64,000 nt of DNA, from NCBI RefSeq assembly GCF_000504305.1, contig NZ_KI632512.1, positions 2,942,220 to 3,006,219 on the forward strand, written 5' to 3'. Under the pieces are notes generated by a model. It was not told the origin of the DNA and searched no databases. It saw nothing but the letters and a program-made list of their open reading frames with translations. The number at the start of each line of letters is the position of its first letter. Positions within the stretch are counted from its first letter, which is position 1. The position numbers and the translations under genes were made by a program. The stretch comes from Nitratidesulfovibrio termitidis HI1 (lineage in GTDB: Bacteria; Desulfobacterota; Desulfovibrionia; Desulfovibrionales; Desulfovibrionaceae). Shown here piece by piece: positions 1,656-35,236 of this stretch.

Positions 1656-2090
1656 CTAGCAAAGAGATGTCAGCGTTTCATTTGGATGCATTGCGTTGAC
1701 TGCGATCACCCCTCTGATGTAAATCTTGAAATGCCGCGCGACTGGCGAGAAAGTGGAGCAACACCACGGGGAAACGCGGCATTCGTCAGCGCCGCTCGCC
1801 TGGGCCGCATCGGACACGATGCCGACAACGACCTTTCCCGCACCGCCGGGAAAGCCTGTCCGGAGGCCGCCCATGTGCTTGTTCATGGTATTTCACGCAA
1901 TCCATTCCCGATTCGACGGCGGTAATGCCGCAGGCGTTCGCGGCGCGGGCAGGTCCTGCGCCTGTCTTGCCGTGCGCGCCAGCCATCCCGCCAGCACCCG
2001 CCTTGCCGCATGCCCCCATTCGGCCGCGCTGCTTCGCCTGGTTCCTGCCGCCATTCGCCCCCTTTCCGGCCTTGTCCGGGGGAGGTCCGC
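1656..2090. other. Intergenic region without a supported gene
   Basis: About 435 bp separate the orphan gene promoter from the transporter start. The only structure noticed is a spaced inverted repeat, AATGCCGCG at 1730-1738 and CGCGGCATT at 1775-1783. Reading frames here are short and lack ribosome sites. Confidence 0.5.
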
Positions 2091-10257: not shown

Positions 10258-10535
10258 GCAGGTTTCCTCCTGGGCGGTGTCTTTTCGGACGGGGTGTGGG
10301 GACGGGGCGCGGCATGCGCGCAAGGCGGGCGGGGATGCCGCGCCGGAATGCCGGGCGGGCTGCGCCGCCCCGTGAAGCTGGCATAGCCGGTTTCCGCCGT
10401 GCCGTCACGTGGCGGGGCCGGTGGGGCGACAGGCATGCGAAAGGGCGAAATGTCCGCGCCCCCGAGCGGGAGCCGCGTGCATTCCGCCCCAGGATGCGTT
10501 GCGTGATGCTTCCGGCCTGTTTTTCGGTGGCCTGC

Positions 10536-11933
10536 CTATTCGGCCTCTGGCCGACCTTCTTCCCTGCCCACGCCCAGCAGGGCCAGGGCAAAGTCGCCGC
10601 CGTCGAAGGGGCGCAGGTCTTCCATCTTTTCGCCCAGCCCCACGAAGGTGATGGGAATGCCGAACTGCATGGCCACCGCCACCACGATGCCGCCCTTGGC
10701 CGTGCCGTCCAGCTTGGTCAGCACGATTTCGTCCACACCGCAGGCCTCGTTGAACAGCTTGGTCTGCGACAGGGCGTTCTGGCCGGTGGTGGCGTCGATG
10801 ACCAGGATGGAGCGGTGCGGCGCGCCGGGGTGCTTGCGTTCCAGGATCCGGCGGATCTTGTGCAACTCTTCCATCAGGTTGACCTTGGTGTGCAGGCGGC
10901 CCGCCGTGTCCACGAACACGATGTCGTAGCCGCCCGCCAGGGCCACGTCCATGGCCTCGAAGGCCACGGCGGCCGGGTCGGACCCGGCGGACTTGGCGTG
11001 AAAGTCGGCCCCCACGCGCCTGGCCCACACTTCCAGCTGTTCGATGGCCGCCGCGCGGAAGGTGTCCGCTGCGGCGATGAGCACCTTCTTGCCCTGCATG
11101 CGGGCGCGGTGGGCCAGCTTGGCGATGGTGGTGGTCTTGCCCACGCCGTTGACGCCGATCATCAGCACCACCTCGGGCGGGGTCACCGCGGCGATGCGGC
11201 GCGGCGCGCGGAAGATGTCCTGCAGTTCCTCGCGCAGCAGGTCGCGGAAGACGGCGGGGTCGTCCGTGCCCGCCTTGCGGGCGCGTTCCTTCAGACGGCC
11301 GGTCAGCTGCATGGCGGGTTCGAAGCCCACGTCGGCCATGATCAGGATTTCTTCCAGCTCTTCCCAGAACTTGTCGTCAATGCGGCCATGCGAGGCCAGC
11401 AGGGCGTCAATGCGACCGGTGATCTGCTCGCGCGTGCGGGCAAGGCCTTCGGTCAGCTTCAGGAACAGTCGGTTGCGTTCGTCTTCCTCGTCCTCCAGGT
11501 CCAGGGCGAGGGCCAGCCGGTACTGCAACTCGGAGCGAAAGTCGCCCACGTAGCGGTAATCCATGGCGGCCAGCCAGCGCCGGAAGTCGGCGATGAAGGC
11601 TTCGCCTTCCGCTTCCGGGGTTTCCAGCGCGGCGAACAGGAAGCGCAGGCGTTCCCACAGAGTGTCGTCCGCCTCGTCCACCCCGGTCAGCACGTGGCCC
11701 AGCCACACCGAAAGGCGCGGCTCGGACTGGCGCAGGGCGCGGGCCAGGTCCGCCCGCCAGGGGGCGTTCTGTGTGCCCGGCGCCGCTGGCGCATCGGGAG
11801 CGGCGGCTTCCGGCGTTGCGGCGGCGTCCTGTGGCGCGGCTGCCGGTGCTGCCGCCGGAGTCGCTGCCGGTTCCGTGGGCGCATCCGTGTCGCGAGGCGT
11901 CCACAATTTCTTGATGGCGCTGAAGAAACCCAT
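10536..11933 (-). CDS. ftsY: Signal recognition particle receptor FtsY
   Basis: FtsY docks SRP-ribosome complexes at the inner membrane through its GTPase NG domain. This 465-residue version has an Ala/Pro/acidic A-domain (to about residue 155), an N-domain helical bundle, and the GTPase motifs GVNGVGKTTT near 263, DTFRAAAIEQL near 290, DTAGR near 343 and TKLDGTAKGG near 405. The C-terminal FVGLGEKMEDLRPFD is diagnostic. The extreme N-terminus MGFFSAIKKLW is an amphipathic membrane-targeting segment. GGAGG lies upstream of the start at 11933. No SRP gene is adjacent. Confidence 0.96.
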   Translation of the reverse strand: MGFFSAIKKLWTPRDTDAPTEPAATPAAAPAAAPQDAAATPEAAAPDAPAAPGTQNAPWRADLARALRQSEPRLSVWLGHVLTGVDEADDTLWERLRFLFAALETPEAEGEAFIADFRRWLAAMDYRYVGDFRSELQYRLALALDLEDEEDERNRLFLKLTEGLARTREQITGRIDALLASHGRIDDKFWEELEEILIMADVGFEPAMQLTGRLKERARKAGTDDPAVFRDLLREELQDIFRAPRRIAAVTPPEVVLMIGVNGVGKTTTIAKLAHRARMQGKKVLIAAADTFRAAAIEQLEVWARRVGADFHAKSAGSDPAAVAFEAMDVALAGGYDIVFVDTAGRLHTKVNLMEELHKIRRILERKHPGAPHRSILVIDATTGQNALSQTKLFNEACGVDEIVLTKLDGTAKGGIVVAVAMQFGIPITFVGLGEKMEDLRPFDGGDFALALLGVGREEGRPEAE

Positions 11934-12342
11934 ATGTCGTCCTCCAGATGTGGGGGAAGTGGCGGTGGGAGCGTGGTTGCGTGACCCGGCCCGTGCACAT
12001 GCCGTCCGGGCGCTGGCGGCGGGCAGGCAACCCGGAACCATGCCGGTCGCGGGGCCGCCACAACTTTGCCCAGAACCCCCGGCGAGTCAAGGTAAGGGGG
12101 CAAGAGGGGCAAGGGGGCGAGCGGGATGGGTGAGGGCAGACCATCAGGGACGGCAGGGCGCAACCCGGACCGTCCGGGAATGGGCATTTCCGCCGCGCCA
12201 TTGCACGGGCGCTCTTTCCATCGCATGGCGCATCGTGTAGGCTGCCGTAAACCGGAAGGTCGATGTGCCGCCGTCCGCCCCGAGCACGGGGCCCCGCGCG
12301 GGCCGAGCCTTCCGAGACAGGCGACGGGGACATGACGCCCGC
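11934..12342. other. Divergent intergenic region
   Basis: About 409 bp between divergent ftsY and the sensor kinase. It should carry both promoters; no clear consensus elements, hairpins or small genes were recognised. Confidence 0.4.
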
Positions 12343-26305: not shown

Positions 26306-26443
26306 TTGCATGGGGCATGCGGGCGTGGTGCGTTGCAGGACGGATTTCCGTGGCGGCGGCGGGGGCGGGAAACGGCGGGAAACCACCGTCCGGAGCGCAT
26401 AAACCCGTGGCGGGGCCAGGCGAAACCGTGTAGGGGAGGAGCC

Positions 26444-26989
26444 ATGTCGCACGTGAAGACCATCCGCGCCATCCGCCGTTTCTGCCTGGACTGCCAGGGC
26501 GGTGTCGCGCGCGAGGTGCGGCTGTGCCCGGACACGGGTTGCGGCCTGTATGCGTGGCGGCTGGCGGGTATAGTGGCTGGCGGGTCCAATGGCGGCAAGC
26601 ATGATCCGGCCGGGGACGGCGATGCCGATGCGCCCGATGCGGCGACCGTGCTGGATGTCTCCATGGTGGCCGGTGCGCCGCTCAAGTCCGCAGCCTCGGC
26701 GGGCAAGTCCGCCACGCACAAGCCAGCTTCGGACCCGCTGCCCGGCGCGCTGCCGCTCATCGCCCAGACCCTGCCCGACGAACGCCCGGTGCGGGCCATC
26801 CGCCGCTACTGCGTTGCCTGCTGCGGCGGCGAACGGGCAGAGGTGCGCACCTGCGACGCCCGCGACCGCTGCGCCCTGTGGTCCTACCGCTTCGGCGTGC
26901 TGCCGGAAACCTACCGCCGGGTCAAGGCGCGCCTGACCGGACCCCGCACGCTGGTGCTGCCGGGGCTGCCCACCGGTACGAACGGGTAA
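26444..26989 (+). CDS. Protein with two copies of a cysteine-cluster motif
   Basis: The 181-residue protein contains the same roughly 35-residue unit twice: IRAIRRFCLDCQGGVAREVR then LCPDTGCGLYAWR near residues 6-38, and VRAIRRYCVACCGGERAEVR then TCDARDRCALWSYR near 115-148. Each unit offers four or more Cys in a CxxC...C...C pattern, consistent with a small zinc-binding or other metal knuckle. The linker is low complexity. I do not know a defined function; similar single units occur in phage and sulfate-reducer hypothetical proteins. GGGGAGGAG precedes the start at 26444. No operon partner. Confidence 0.8.
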   Translation: MSHVKTIRAIRRFCLDCQGGVAREVRLCPDTGCGLYAWRLAGIVAGGSNGGKHDPAGDGDADAPDAATVLDVSMVAGAPLKSAASAGKSATHKPASDPLPGALPLIAQTLPDERPVRAIRRYCVACCGGERAEVRTCDARDRCALWSYRFGVLPETYRRVKARLTGPRTLVLPGLPTGTNG

Positions 26990-27124: not shown

Positions 27125-27940
27125 TCAGGCCACGGGCACGCCCCGGCGCAGCCGGGCGCGGATGTCGGAAAGCTGGTCCTCCATGGCCGAAACGCGGGCC
27201 AGCAGGCGGGCTTCTTCCGTGGTGCGGCGCAGCACCGCGCGCACGGCCCCGTGCTCGAACACCAGACGCCGGTCGGCGGACAGGGCCAGCACCGGGTCGT
27301 GGGTGGCGATGACCACGATCTTGTCGCTGCGCAGCAACAGGTCCAGCGCGCGCCGCTTGTCCACCCCGGCGTTTTCGATCTCGTCGATGAGCAGCACCGG
27401 CGACCAGCTGAGCAGGGCCGCATCGGCAATCATCAGCGCGCGTGACTGCCCGCCCGAAAGCTGGGTGAGGTGCGCGTCATCCCCGAACGGCTCGCCCGCA
27501 AGGTCGTTGGCTGCCGCCAGCACCGCGCGGGCCGTGGCGTCCGGGTCGGGCACGGCGCGGCTTTCGGCGTGCATGCGGATGAACGGCAGCGCGCGCATGT
27601 CCAGCACGAAGTTCATGTTCTGGGTCAGTTGGGCCACCAGCCGCCCTTGCAGGGCAAAGCGGCGGTCGGCGTCGGGGATGGCGTCGTCCAGCAGGATGCG
27701 CCTGCCGGAGGGGGTGTCCGCGTCGGCCAGCGATTCGATGTCGTACAAGAAGCGGCTTTTGCCGGAGCCGGTGGGGCCGAGCAGTGCCGTGACCTCGCCG
27801 GGGCGGAAGGTGACGTCCGCGTGTTCGGCGTGGCCCGACTTGTCGTGCCCGGCCAGCACGGTGAGGGTGCGCAGCACGGGGGCGTCGTTGTCTGCCCCGG
27901 GCGCGGCGGCTGTCGGATCGGGGGTGTGGGTGGACATCAT
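27125..27940 (-). CDS. Orphan ABC-type ATPase
   Basis: The 271-residue protein has a complete ABC ATPase core: Walker A GPTGSGKS near residue 54, the signature LSGGQSRAL near 162, Walker B VLLIDEIENAG near 188 and the switch His in ATHDP near 217. No permease is encoded nearby. It is last in a three-gene operon, its ATG overlapping the stop of the GTPase gene as ATGA. The region after Walker A is unlike typical importer ATPases, with ALQGRLVAQLTQNMNF where the Q-loop is expected. With no membrane partner it may drive a soluble process such as metallocentre assembly; that is inference. Confidence 0.87.
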   Translation of the reverse strand: MMSTHTPDPTAAAPGADNDAPVLRTLTVLAGHDKSGHAEHADVTFRPGEVTALLGPTGSGKSRFLYDIESLADADTPSGRRILLDDAIPDADRRFALQGRLVAQLTQNMNFVLDMRALPFIRMHAESRAVPDPDATARAVLAAANDLAGEPFGDDAHLTQLSGGQSRALMIADAALLSWSPVLLIDEIENAGVDKRRALDLLLRSDKIVVIATHDPVLALSADRRLVFEHGAVRAVLRRTTEEARLLARVSAMEDQLSDIRARLRRGVPVA

Positions 27941-28743
27941 GCGCGCCCCCCGGTTTCGCACGGCTGGCTTGATTCGTTCTGCTCGTCAGGCGTGCGCGAT
28001 GCATCCAGCCCGCCCGCCGCGTAGGCGGCCTCGCCTTCCGGGTCGCGCGCGGGCACGGCGGCGAATTCCGCCTTGCGCACGTTGCCCTTCTGGTAGCGGC
28101 TGCCGATGCGCGTCTCGCTCAGGCAGTACGAGCACACGGCGGCTGGCATGGCGAAGCGCAGCCGCATGTCCGTCACCGTGGCGATGTCCGGCGCGCGGGA
28201 GAGCACCGTGGCCAGTTCCTGGCAGCCCTGCCCGGTCAGCCCGTTGATGTGGCGGATCAGCGCACGGCCGTTCATCTGGCGGATGCGGTGGCGGTACACC
28301 TCGCGTTCCGCCTGCGAGACAAGGTCGCCCTTGGTCACCAGCACCAGGTCCGCCAGGCGCAGCATGGGGCCGATCTTTTCCGGCGCGTCGATGCCCATCA
28401 GGTTGTCCACCACGCACAGGGCCAGCGCCCCGCGCAGGTGGGGCGAGCAGCGGTTGCACAGCCCGGCGGTTTCGATGACGCAACACTCCGCCCCTGTTCC
28501 GGCGGCCCAGTCCCAGGCCTCTTCCAGATTGGTGGCAAAGAAGTGATCCGGGCACAGCCCGCCGGACAGCGCGGCCACGGCGGTGATGCCCGCCGTCGCG
28601 TAGGCGTCCGCATCGCGGGTTTGCAGGCAGTCGAACTTGATCACCGCCGTGCGCACCCCCTGCGCGGCCAGCAGTCCGCAGGCGCGGGAGAGCACCGATG
28701 TCTTGCCGCACGAGGGCGGCCCGGCCACGGTCACGAGGCGCAT
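27937..28743 (-). CDS. G3E-like (HypB/CooC/CobW-type) nucleotide-binding protein
   Basis: The 268-residue P-loop protein has GPPSCGKTS at residues 8-16, VIKFDCLQTRDADAYA near 35, ETAGLCNRCSPHLRG near 91 and VTKGD near 137. The arrangement recalls the metal-chaperone GTPases HypB, UreG and CobW, and the CNRC motif just after the switch region could bind a metal. A C-terminal CSYC pair adds a second possible site. It overlaps the upstream gene by 13 bp and the downstream ABC ATPase by 4 bp, so the three are probably made together. The metal and client are unknown. Confidence 0.85.
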   Translation of the reverse strand: MRLVTVAGPPSCGKTSVLSRACGLLAAQGVRTAVIKFDCLQTRDADAYATAGITAVAALSGGLCPDHFFATNLEEAWDWAAGTGAECCVIETAGLCNRCSPHLRGALALCVVDNLMGIDAPEKIGPMLRLADLVLVTKGDLVSQAEREVYRHRIRQMNGRALIRHINGLTGQGCQELATVLSRAPDIATVTDMRLRFAMPAAVCSYCLSETRIGSRYQKGNVRKAEFAAVPARDPEGEAAYAAGGLDASRTPDEQNESSQPCETGGRA

Positions 28744-29807
28744 GCGGCGTCTCCCTTGCCTTGCGCCTCTCGCGCGTTGACGAGCAGGCGGAATTCGCCG
28801 TTCAGCCGGTCGCGCAGGGCGGTGATGTCCGTCCCGTTGATGTAGTCCCAGCCTATCCACTTGATGGCGGCCCCCTGCGGCAGGCTTTCGGGCAGCGGCC
28901 CGGTCAGCGGCAGGAACCAGCGGGCGCTTTCCAGCTGGCCGAACCCCGTGGCGAAAAAGTCGATCAGCCGGTCCAGCCGGGGGCGGGCCGTGCGCTTGGC
29001 CAGCATGTACAGGGGGCTGGCCGCCGCGCCGTCCTCCGGCCAGACGGTCAGCATGTGGTCCGGCTGGCGGGTGGTTTCCGCAAAGAAGTACGGCAGGATG
29101 TAGATGCCCCCGGCCTGCGGGGCGCCGCCGGACTTGGCCATGCGCGAGGAATGCATGAGCCCGCGCGTGTTGGCGGCAAACCGGGCAACACCCTGCATGC
29201 CGAAGTCCTTGTGGATGGACAGCAGCACCGCGTCGGCCATGTCGTCGCCGTCGCCGCACATGTTCACCTGCCCGGCGTAGCGCGGGTCCAGCAGGTCGGC
29301 CCAGCGGCGCGGTACGGGCAGGTCGCCTAGGCGCTTGCGGTCGATGAGGAAGATGTACGGGGTCAGCCCGTAGACCAGGTAGCGTCCGGCGGGGTCCACG
29401 ATGCCCGCCGCGCGGTGCATGGGGGTGACGCCCTCCGGTTCCGGCGCGGTGAACACCCCCGTGTTGACGAAACGTTCCACGAAGCCGCGCCGGAAAAAGT
29501 CGCCGAAGCCGATGGAGGCGATGACCTGCGGCAGGTGGTCGGGGTCGGTTTCGCGGTACAGCGGGTCGTACGGGTCCACCGAGGTGCAGCCCATGGGGAT
29601 GTGGATGGCCAGGGGATCGCCGTCACCAGCGCCCGTGGCCGCGTGCGTTGCGGCCAGCCCGTCAGCCAGTGCGTTGACGGCGTCCTTCACCGCCAGCTTC
29701 ACCGGGCAGGGCGCGTAGAACAGCAGGTCCGCCGGGGGTGGGGGCGGCTGGCGGTCTTCCTCTCCCATGCGACTTACGGACTGGATGAGGTCGTCGAGGC
29801 TTTTCAT
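28731..29807 (-). CDS. Solute-binding-like protein lacking a signal peptide
   Basis: The 358-residue protein has a type-II periplasmic-binding-protein fold signature resembling iron(III)/ABC substrate-binding proteins (FFRRGFVERFVNTGVF, GLTPYIFLIDRKRLGDLPVP, DLLDPRYAGQVNMCGDGDD). Its N-terminus (MKSLDDLIQSVSRMGEED) is charged and lacks any signal peptide or lipobox, so it should stay in the cytoplasm. The start at 29807 has AGGAG upstream. It heads a coupled operon with a GTPase and an ABC ATPase but no permease, so normal import is unlikely. A cytoplasmic metal- or cofactor-handling role fits better. Confidence 0.8.
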   Translation of the reverse strand: MKSLDDLIQSVSRMGEEDRQPPPPPADLLFYAPCPVKLAVKDAVNALADGLAATHAATGAGDGDPLAIHIPMGCTSVDPYDPLYRETDPDHLPQVIASIGFGDFFRRGFVERFVNTGVFTAPEPEGVTPMHRAAGIVDPAGRYLVYGLTPYIFLIDRKRLGDLPVPRRWADLLDPRYAGQVNMCGDGDDMADAVLLSIHKDFGMQGVARFAANTRGLMHSSRMAKSGGAPQAGGIYILPYFFAETTRQPDHMLTVWPEDGAAASPLYMLAKRTARPRLDRLIDFFATGFGQLESARWFLPLTGPLPESLPQGAAIKWIGWDYINGTDITALRDRLNGEFRLLVNAREAQGKGDAACAS

Positions 29808-29949
29808 GCGGCGGCTCCTGTGTCGGAAGCGACAAAAACGGCGCGTGCAACGCGGCGTGTGCGCCCATGCGACGAAAGTGTCGCGGCGCGGGGCAAGAAT
29901 CCACGACAGCAAGGGGCATGCCGCAGGGCGGCGGCATGGCTCCCGCGCA

Positions 29950-33143: not shown

Positions 33144-34166
33144 GTGAAGCAGCTGCTTTCCACCCGCGAGGTGGCCAAGGTGCTCGGCGTCAATGAAAAG
33201 ATGATCTACAGCCTGATCACCGAAAAGGGCCTTCCCGCCACCAAGGTGACCGGCAAGTGGCTGTTTCCCGCGCATCTGGTGGAACAGTGGCTGGAAAACA
33301 ACACCGTGAACCACCCGGAACGTGCGGGCGGCACGGTGCAGCCGGGCGGCGGCGTGCTGGTGGTGGCGGGCAGCAACGACCTGCTGCTGGACAAGGCCCT
33401 GGGCCTGTTCGCGGACCTGAACCCCGGGCATATCGCGGCCTTTGCCAACCTGGGCAGCATGGGCGGCTTGCGGGCCATGCGCGAGGGCCTGTGCCACATG
33501 GCGGCCAGCCACCTGATGGAGGGCGGCCCCGGCCACGCGGCGGAGCCTGCCGCGACCACCGGGCCTGGCGCGGCCACATCGGACGTGGGGCAGGGCGGTG
33601 CAGGCGGAAACGGAGGCGCGGGCGGCAAGTCGGGCCGTGACTACAATTTCGGGCATGCCCGACAAGAGCTGGACGAGGCCCCGGCGGTTGTCAATTTCTG
33701 CATCCGCGAGCAGGGCTATCTGGTGGCCCCCGGCAACCCCAACGCCGTGCGCGACGCGGGCGACATAGTGCGCAAGGGGCTGCGGGTGGTCAACAGGCCG
33801 CTGGGCACGGGCACGCGGCTGCTGTTCGACACCGAGCTTTCCCGCGTGGGGGCGGACCCCCTGCGCATTCCCGGCTACGGCACCGAGGTGCGCCGCCACC
33901 TGGACGCGGGTATCGAGGTGCTGGCGGGCCGGGCCGACGCGGCCCCCGGCATCCGGGCCGTGGCCGGGCTGCTGGGCCTTGGCTTCGTGCCGGTGCAGCG
34001 CGAGCGGTTCGACCTGCTGGTGCCCCGCGCCCGGTACTTCGACCGGGGGGTGCAGCTGTTTCTGGGCATGCTGGTGGATGCGCGGTTCCGTGCCCTGGCC
34101 GACGGCTTCGCGGGGTACGACCTGTCGCGGGCCGGGCGGGTGGTATTTCCCGGCGACGCGCCATAG
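33144..34166 (+). CDS. HTH (excisionase-type) regulator with PBP-like ligand domain
   Basis: The 340-residue protein joins an N-terminal MerR/excisionase-like helix-turn-helix (STREVAKVLGVNEKMIYSL, then KVTGKWLFPAHLVEQWL) to a C-terminal periplasmic-binding-protein-like domain (about residues 70-335). This architecture is known in regulators that sense molybdate, tungstate or related ligands (PBP_like, PF12727); the ligand here is not certain. A Gly-rich insert near 135-160 splits the ligand domain. The start is GTG at 33144 with AGGAGG 8 bases upstream. A terminator follows closely. No molybdopterin or transporter genes are adjacent. Confidence 0.85.
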   Translation: MKQLLSTREVAKVLGVNEKMIYSLITEKGLPATKVTGKWLFPAHLVEQWLENNTVNHPERAGGTVQPGGGVLVVAGSNDLLLDKALGLFADLNPGHIAAFANLGSMGGLRAMREGLCHMAASHLMEGGPGHAAEPAATTGPGAATSDVGQGGAGGNGGAGGKSGRDYNFGHARQELDEAPAVVNFCIREQGYLVAPGNPNAVRDAGDIVRKGLRVVNRPLGTGTRLLFDTELSRVGADPLRIPGYGTEVRRHLDAGIEVLAGRADAAPGIRAVAGLLGLGFVPVQRERFDLLVPRARYFDRGVQLFLGMLVDARFRALADGFAGYDLSRAGRVVFPGDAP

Positions 34167-34273: not shown

Positions 34274-35236
34274 CTAGGCCTCGCGTTCCGCATCCGCCGC
34301 GAAGTTTTCCGCCGCGTCGGTGTCGCCGGCTGCGGCAGCGGACGCCTCGGGTCCCATGCCCTGACCGCCGCGCGGACCATGCGGGCCGAAACCGTCATGG
34401 TGACCCCGACCGCCCCGACCGGCCCGACCGCCCCGACCGGCCTGACCGCCCCGACCGGCCTGACCGGCGTGACCACCGCGACCGGCATGCCCGCCGCGCC
34501 CGTTACCACCGTGATCACCGTGTCCGGCCCGGCCATGGCCGCAGCATCCGCCACGTCCATCTTCCGCATCGGCGCGGGCTTCGGGGCCGTGGCCCGCGTG
34601 GCAGCAACCCTGCCCGTGCGGGCCGTGGCCGTGGTGAGCATGCCCGTGAGGGCCATGCCCATGGTGACCGCCGTGCCCGTCATGCGCGTGGGCGGCGGCG
34701 TCTTCGCCTCCGCAGCAGCCGTGGCGGCCCCGGCCATGTCCGTCATGCCCACCATGCCCGTGTCCGCCCATGCGGCGGCAGGCCCCGCCTGCTTCGTCCT
34801 TGGCCTCCAGTGAGGCGATCAGCTTGTCCAGCAGCGCGGAAAGGGCCTGCTGCTCCTCGTCCGACAACCCGGCCAGGGAAGCTTCCGCAGCGTCCTTGCG
34901 GGCCTGGCGCACCTCGTCCACCATGGCCCGGCCCTTTTCGGTCAGGAACACGGCGCTCATGCGCTGGTCTTCCTCGTGGCGGCGGCGTTCGATGCTGCCG
35001 TCGCGCGAAAGCTTGTCCAGCAGTTCGCTGAGGGATGGCGGCTGCACGCGCAGCAGCGCGGCCAGGTCGCGCGGGCTTTGCCCGTCCTGTTCGGCCAGCA
35101 GGGCGAGAACCCGCCCCTGCCCGCGATGCGCGCCGCCGCGCCCCCCATGAGGACCATGCGGGCCGTGCCCCCGGTGCAGCAGGTTCATGCAGTAGTGCAG
35201 TTGGTGAAACAGCTTTTCAGTGGTGGAAATATGCAT
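34274..35236 (-). CDS. MarR-family regulator with histidine-rich metal-binding tail
   Basis: The 320-residue protein has a MarR winged helix in its first ~150 residues (SPRDLAALLRVQPPSLSELL, then DKLSRDGSIERRRHEEDQRM, FLTEKGRAMVDEV). From about residue 155 it carries a tail of about 165 residues rich in Gly and His, with GCC/CCG cysteine pairs and many HGHGPHG-type repeats. The N-terminus also has an HGPHGPHGG stretch. Such tails chelate Ni, Zn, Cu or Co. AAGGAG precedes the start at 35236, and palindromic operator-like sites lie just upstream, suggesting autoregulation. Part of the tail DNA is a 9-bp-period repeat (34402-34473). Confidence 0.85.
   Translation of the reverse strand: MHISTTEKLFHQLHYCMNLLHRGHGPHGPHGGRGGAHRGQGRVLALLAEQDGQSPRDLAALLRVQPPSLSELLDKLSRDGSIERRRHEEDQRMSAVFLTEKGRAMVDEVRQARKDAAEASLAGLSDEEQQALSALLDKLIASLEAKDEAGGACRRMGGHGHGGHDGHGRGRHGCCGGEDAAAHAHDGHGGHHGHGPHGHAHHGHGPHGQGCCHAGHGPEARADAEDGRGGCCGHGRAGHGDHGGNGRGGHAGRGGHAGQAGRGGQAGRGGRAGRGGRGHHDGFGPHGPRGGQGMGPEASAAAAGDTDAAENFAADAEREA

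Follow-up and report, generated by a model that had tools for sequence, protein, structure and literature searches.

The stretch examined here, a window of 64,000 nucleotides from the sulfate-reducing bacterium Nitratidesulfovibrio termitidis HI1 (contig NZ_KI632512.1, positions 2,942,220 to 3,006,219; assembly GCF_000504305.1), carries on its minus strand a three-gene operon (27125-29807, read from its open reading frames) that brings together two import-type components and a GTPase. In order of transcription, these encode a solute-binding-type protein (SBP; P0001, 358 residues; 28731..29807), a HypB/UreG-class GTPase (P0002, 268 residues; 27937..28743) and an ABC ATPase without a permease (P0003 less 7 residues, about 271 residues; 27125..27940), whose start we place at the ATG that overlaps the GTPase stop codon as ATGA. 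An earlier sequence-only reading of this DNA had described such an operon with overlaps of 13 bp and 4 bp, and the frame coordinates confirm it: read directly from the sequence, the SBP and GTPase genes share 13 bp and the GTPase and ABC genes 4 bp (ATGA). The trio is not a chance assembly, since all three genes occurred together in 18 of 18 loci of the first homologue search (the SBP weakly in L020) and the set was complete in all 21 loci fetched later, a Fusobacterium record included.

Conserved features of the three proteins

The SBP matches PF13343 (SBP_bac_6) with 208.2 bits against a gathering score of 24.6, and its AlphaFold2 model, built with 35 sequences, has a mean predicted local distance difference test score (pLDDT) of 89.7. 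Ferric-binding proteins top the list of structures aligned to this model with VIA-align (8k7n, Z 20.0, 3.2 A over 278 residues), followed by 1xvy (Z 19.9) and 3od7 (Z 19.7), which tie with it within 1. In the model, the FbpA-like fold aligns from residue 25 on, and residues 1-24 form an extra helix and linker rather than a signal peptide. Hydropathy was averaged over stretches of 12 residues: within the first 40 residues, the maximum did not exceed 2.06 in any of 46 cytoplasmic-type SBPs, as against at least 2.43 in 22 of 23 control SBPs of the FecB/SsuA type from the same loci, scanned over their first 60 residues. The export signal expected of an extracytoplasmic importer SBP was thus not found by this hydropathy test, which bears out the claimed lack of a signal peptide, and the protein is, to judge by its sequence, cytoplasmic. 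In both relatives of the Bacillota set that were scanned with Pfam, a DUF1858 domain stands in front of the SBP, and a similar N-terminus was recognized by eye in Fusobacterium and several other sequences; the same domain was not found on the three ABC N-termini scanned. We considered an N-terminal domain common to the SBP and ABC proteins of other lineages and dropped it, as the hhalign result, 61.5% over 30 columns, does not bear the claim. Two SBP residues, Cys34 (29706..29708, minus strand), near the start of the binding-protein fold, and His219 (29151..29153, minus strand), are invariant in 35 type I SBPs.

The GTPase matches PF02492 (cobW/HypB/UreG) with 44.2 bits against a gathering score of 20.7. 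Its structural list is headed by UreG (5xkt, Z 17.3) and HypB (2hf8, Z 16.9; 4lps, Z 16.5), with MeaB next (Z 15.7), and its sequence profile also finds UreG and HypB; hence, by sequence as by modelled structure, these two are its closest relatives. The label ‘HypB-like’ given to it earlier is apt for fold and motifs, though the protein lies below the cut-offs of both the hypB family (TIGR00073, 41.4 bits against 121.2) and the ureG family (TIGR00101, 21.5 bits against 204.2). The CNRC (residues 96-99; 28447..28458, minus strand) and CSYC (residues 204-207; 28123..28134, minus strand) motifs noted in the sequence-only reading are both present, and they are joined by a third metal-type motif that it had missed, CPDH (residues 64-67; 28543..28554, minus strand), which aligns with the CPH of UreG. 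Across 79 of 79 sequences, C64, P65, D66, H67, C96, R98, C99, C204 and C207 are identical, so that six cysteines and histidines are invariant (C64, H67, C96, C99, C204 and C207). The CPH site of UreG binds nickel, and the title of the 5xkt structure names a nickel complex.

The third protein scores 47 bits with ABC_tran, above the curated Pfam cut-off, and its motifs are intact (Walker A as GPTGSGKS, LSGGQ, and Walker B followed by ENAG). As had been claimed, it has no membrane partner close by: no FecCD- or BPD-type permease was found by tblastn in the 23 kb around the operon or in 24 loci of its own clade (386 kb). Eight further loci of this clade include one, L162, in which FecB, FecCD and ATPase genes lie together 0.8 kb from the trio.

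Spread and subtypes

GTPase profile matches were found in 32 of 99 genomes of the same family, 20 of 395 of the same phylum and 50 of 398 in the phylum of a Bacillota metagenome-assembled genome. The SBP-GTPase-ABC set is also present in one record of Fusobacterium vincentii (NZ_CP084075.1); this record, filed as a 2.1 Mb plasmid, is chromosome-like and bears only one annotated feature. A third subtype, with 15 of the rows, stands apart in the tree built from 78 GTPases; here, the ABC and GTPase genes are in most cases followed not by the SBP but by an Fe-S protein, and the one such protein scanned matches PF04060. These operons (L122-L133 and L059-L061), whose runs contain neither an SBP nor a permease cluster, are a separate system. 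Neighbours were counted at 77 GTPase places, 62 of them of the main type; the GTPase of L058 was not extracted, and L020 was omitted as a duplicate of L094. The SBP lies in the same-strand run at 30 of 38 main-type places outside the operon's own clade, a clade with DUF364 being without it. Genes were called greedily by length, and because such calls are noisy in GC-rich loci, the neighbours in the operon's own clade were rechecked by tblastn.

Beside the type II trios of L151 and L153, TonB-receptor-like proteins (named by eye) follow or adjoin the genes. A radical SAM protein (PF04055), its C-terminal part FecB-like by eye, lies beside type II trios at 10259-12049 on the minus strand of L056 and in L112. 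A NifH gene (PF00142; L050, 6231-7091, minus strand) lies a few hundred bases downstream of a trio and a FecB gene.

Links to molybdenum, tungsten and the hybrid-cluster protein

The molybdenum/tungsten (Mo/W) riboswitch RF01055 gave eight matches in six of 54 loci scanned, and in two of these it lies directly upstream of trio operons. In L095, one copy precedes GTPase-ABC-SBP and another heads a FecE-FecB-FecC-SBP-GTPase-ABC run; in L116, one precedes GTPase-ABC-DUF364 and one FecC. The riboswitch also precedes a FecB gene in L112 and L113. Molybdopterin oxidoreductases are found by Pfam in L051 and L114, with cluster relatives in L055 and L110, and formate dehydrogenase-like genes were read by eye in L109/L110. 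DUF364 is present in four loci; its genome context includes tungstate and molybdate proteins, according to the available text of PMC2954201.

In the window itself, a gene for a TaoR-type regulator (HTH_17 and PBP_like domains by Pfam; 33144..34166, plus strand) lies 3.3 kb from the operon, and regulators of this type, whose domain make-up is described in the accessible part of PMC11980592, are also near the trio in four relatives (L004, L005, L157 and L158). From its domains, it is a possible candidate for a tungsten or molybdenum link of the window operon. The open frame of the MoeA encoded in this genome (G000:C1:2297586-2299475) also matches the PBP-like part of the window regulator, and a PBP-like domain is likewise reported on the MoeA of DvH (DVU0951) in the portion of PMC10102598 at hand. 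The same paper is cited for positive fitness of aor and moeA in chlorate.

A second branch of trios lies next to the hybrid-cluster protein (Hcp): in eight loci, seven from the Bacillota set and one from the phylum of the window, Hcp is either part of the operon or encoded no more than about 4 kb away. In L107 and L108, where Hcp follows the trio, an exact HcpR2 consensus, GTAACnnnnGTTAC (as given in the available text of PMC1274295), precedes it by 77 and 87 bp, respectively. CRP-family genes occur in 10 loci. Upstream of the operons of the window's own clade, no match at p <=0.05 was found for the HcpR2, the FNR-like HcpR1 or the Desulfovibrio-type HcpR motif.

For co-occurrence, we took 44 of the 70 carrier genomes, leaving out the 26 with the third subtype only, and compared them with a non-random set of 36 non-carriers made up of numbered picks and all non-carriers seen in the family of the window. 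Any Hcp was present in 42 of the 44 carriers and 27 of the 36 non-carriers (p 0.010), and full-length Hcp in 40 and 17, respectively (p 2e-5); within the Bacillota-phylum set, the latter was found in 23 of 27 carriers against 6 of 22 non-carriers. Two carriers, G622 and G758, have the trio near Hcp and are without HypB, carbon monoxide dehydrogenase (CODH) and MoeA; G749 also is without all three. The cargo in the Hcp-linked branch must be something other than Mo/W in at least two genomes.

Nickel enzymes as suggested targets

The sequence-only reading had suggested that hydrogenase, CODH, corrinoid or nickel genes would be common neighbours of the trio. The counts do not support this: of the 44 carriers, 29 have HypB and 21 have CODH, as against 20 (p 0.37) and 11 (p 0.17) of the 36 non-carriers, and 12 carriers are without both, on which grounds nickel, hydrogenase or CODH as a common target was rejected. 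The best point for the nickel idea is the distribution of CODH within Desulfovibrionaceae, where 7 of the 8 carriers and 2 of the 9 non-carriers have it. A single group of Desulfovibrio loci has HypD/HypE-type genes beside the trio, and the genome of the window has a separate HypB (4207184-4207813). A CODH gene lies about 7 kb from the trio in G277 (L048, 16955-18835, minus strand); in the related genomes G213 and G391, none was seen close to the trio.

Surroundings of the operon

Upstream of the operon lie two palindromes, TGTCG-N4-CGACA (29821..29834) and GCGAC-N6-GTCGC (29869..29884), both kept in L004 and L005. The first was tried as the mark of a regulon and rejected, as it is not enriched (five places in the genome against five for the reversed control). 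One of its genomic copies sits between nifV-like and nifH-like genes (read by eye), and the CooA consensus, as given in the available text of PMC545781, differs from it in spacing. Directly downstream of the trio, on the opposite strand, is a gene for a 227-residue protein (26306-26989, plus strand) with a cysteine-rich stretch in two copies, AIRRFCLDCQGG... and AIRRYCVACCGG..., which matched no Pfam family. Elsewhere in the window, a MarR-family regulator (34274-35236, minus strand) has a long tail rich in histidine, glycine and cysteine that may bind metal, and a ZMP/ZTP riboswitch (1728-1812, plus strand) follows the genes for 23S rRNA (3' part) and 5S rRNA.

A proposed soluble machine for handing over a metal or cofactor

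In our reading, to which we give about even chances, the trio works as soluble machinery of the cytoplasm: it would capture a metal, alone or in a small complex, and pass this on to an enzyme. This reading builds on what is established for the trio, viz., the gene linkage, the location as read from sequence, the folds, the invariant residues and the Mo/W riboswitches at some relatives; from these, we infer a single three-protein complex, a direction of transfer and a cargo. The SBP cleft would hold the cargo, with Cys34 and His219 as candidate ligands. In importers, ATPases act on SBPs across a membrane; here, the ABC ATPase would spend ATP to open or unload the SBP with no membrane involved. 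The GTPase would then accept the metal on the residues of its CPDH, CxRC and CxxC motifs, and GTP hydrolysis would lead to release to the target. With its signal-less SBP fold and UreG/HypB-like GTPase, the trio is still best understood as the sequence-only reading had it, as components of import systems turned to a soluble task that involves a metal. What stands of that reading is the placing of import-type parts in the cytoplasm, probably acting on a metal, and what finds no support are the nickel, CODH and hydrogenase targets.

As to the cargo, in the riboswitch-linked branches it is probably Mo or W, as the oxyanion or bound to pterin, and for the window operon there is a weak lean the same way because of the TaoR-type regulator gene nearby. 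However, Mo/W cannot be the cargo everywhere because some genomes of the Hcp-linked branch are without MoeA; either the cargo varies among branches or it is something common to Mo/W and Hcp biology. A fuller version, which we hold more tentatively and at less than even odds, is that an SBP and an importer-type ABC ATPase moved to the cytosol and, with the GTPase, make up an undescribed cofactor-loading machine driven by ATP and GTP, which a change of receptor would fit to another cargo: Mo/W where the branch is linked to riboswitches, and iron or the hybrid cluster where it is linked to Hcp.

Several observations weigh against these proposals. The GTPase model has a pLDDT below 50 at residues 65-68 and 199-210, which are stretches with the cysteines and histidines; His219 is not kept in the type II SBPs, and Cys34 is kept there only in part. 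RF01055 was found neither in the window nor in a set of seven loci, five of them of the same family. The co-occurrence with Mo/W markers is weak: of the 44 carriers and 36 non-carriers, 38 and 24, respectively, have MoeA (p 0.058), and 35 and 22 have AOR (p 0.086). The six carriers without MoeA include the Hcp-adjacent G622 and G758, and they rule out Mo/W as the sole cargo.

Among the rival explanations, the one that ties the trio to Hcp and nitrosative-stress defence, through iron supply or repair of the Fe-S-O cluster under HcpR-type control, is unlikely, though the likeliest of the four, and has in its favour the Hcp neighbours in loci of two phyla, the HcpR2 consensus GTAACnnnnGTTAC in L107 and L108, the 10 loci with CRP-family genes, the enrichment of full-length Hcp, the ferric-binding-protein fold of the modelled SBP, and the two genomes that have the trio and Hcp without HypB, CODH or MoeA. 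However, many anaerobes have Hcp, and the genomes sampled are spread unevenly over the phylogeny; chance alone should give a few matches at p of about 0.01 when three motifs are sought in about 70 upstream regions; none of the 24 own-clade loci has Hcp near the trio; and the carriers G611 and G778 are without Hcp altogether, the trio of G778 being under a Mo/W riboswitch. That the SBP and ABC proteins are parts of a membrane importer, with its permease encoded elsewhere and the SBP as an inside trap, we consider quite improbable. For it speak the importer set of L162 and the FecCD or BPD permeases in the fetched stretch of 17 of 37 main-type loci outside the window's own clade (inside the same-strand run in eight and elsewhere in the stretch in nine), and they leave the permease question mixed, since a permease consistently adjacent to the trio had been named as what would refute the soluble role. 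Yet the 24 own-clade loci have none, the SBP is without an export signal, and in most permease-bearing loci the importer has its own ATPase, separate from the ABC protein of the trio, so that the loss of a permease from an importer would not by itself explain the trio.

More doubtful again is a module for sensing or homeostasis, in which the cytoplasmic SBP domain would sense an oxyanion and the NTPases would gate the loading of an enzyme or storage. The TaoR-type regulator of the window has a PBP-like domain, to which the MoeA frame of this genome is matched and which has its counterpart on the DvH MoeA, and such domains, as in TaoR, may sense an oxyanion; but the invariant cysteines and histidines of the GTPase suggest metal transfer, and Pfam found no DNA-binding or signalling domain in the trio. 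Least probable of all is the suggestion of the sequence-only reading that the trio serves hydrogenase or CODH as a nickel chaperone: the likeness of the GTPase to HypB and UreG, the HypD/HypE-type neighbours of one Desulfovibrio group and the distribution of CODH in Desulfovibrionaceae are set against the lack of overall enrichment, the 12 carriers without HypB and CODH, the separate HypB of this genome, and a hypB score far short of the cut-off. Thus, a soluble machine that hands over a metal or cofactor remains a better fit than an importer or a nickel chaperone.

Relation to known systems

The trio is unusual and apparently undescribed: no description of it was found in the literature searched, though the regulon tables of TunR (2013) and TaoR (2019, cited in the available text of PMC10102598) may list it. 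If the proposed role is true, SBPs and ABC ATPases would act outside transport, in the delivery of metallocofactors, and an unassigned maturation machine, encoded near formate dehydrogenases and Hcp, would be common to anaerobes of at least three phyla. The sorting of Mo from W, or the building of hybrid clusters, in anaerobes would then become directly testable in genetically tractable Desulfovibrio.

In fold, GTPase motifs and the presence of a CPH-type site as in UreG, the GTPase is like the nickel-insertion GTPases HypB and UreG; it differs from them in having CPDH for CPH and the additional CxRC and CxxC motifs, in scoring far below their family cut-offs, and in its partners, an SBP and an ABC ATPase, with hydrogenase-maturation genes adjoining in one group only. 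The SBP has the overall fold of the ferric-binding proteins FbpA, SfuA and KfuA of FbpABC importers (Z 20.0), in contrast to which it has no signal peptide and no permease in its operon, and has the invariant Cys34 and His219 and, in some relatives, a DUF1858 domain. SufC-type soluble ABC ATPases also work in cofactor assembly without a permease, and the ABC protein can be likened to them in this respect; however, no SufB or SufD partner was seen with the trio, the partners here being the SBP and the GTPase. Lastly, FecCD-type importers under Mo/W riboswitches, of the kind represented by MolBC-A, a molybdate importer according to the available text of PMC4031551, adjoin some trios; in contrast to these, the trio itself combines its ATPase with a GTPase and a binding protein that stays unexported, and has no permease of its own.

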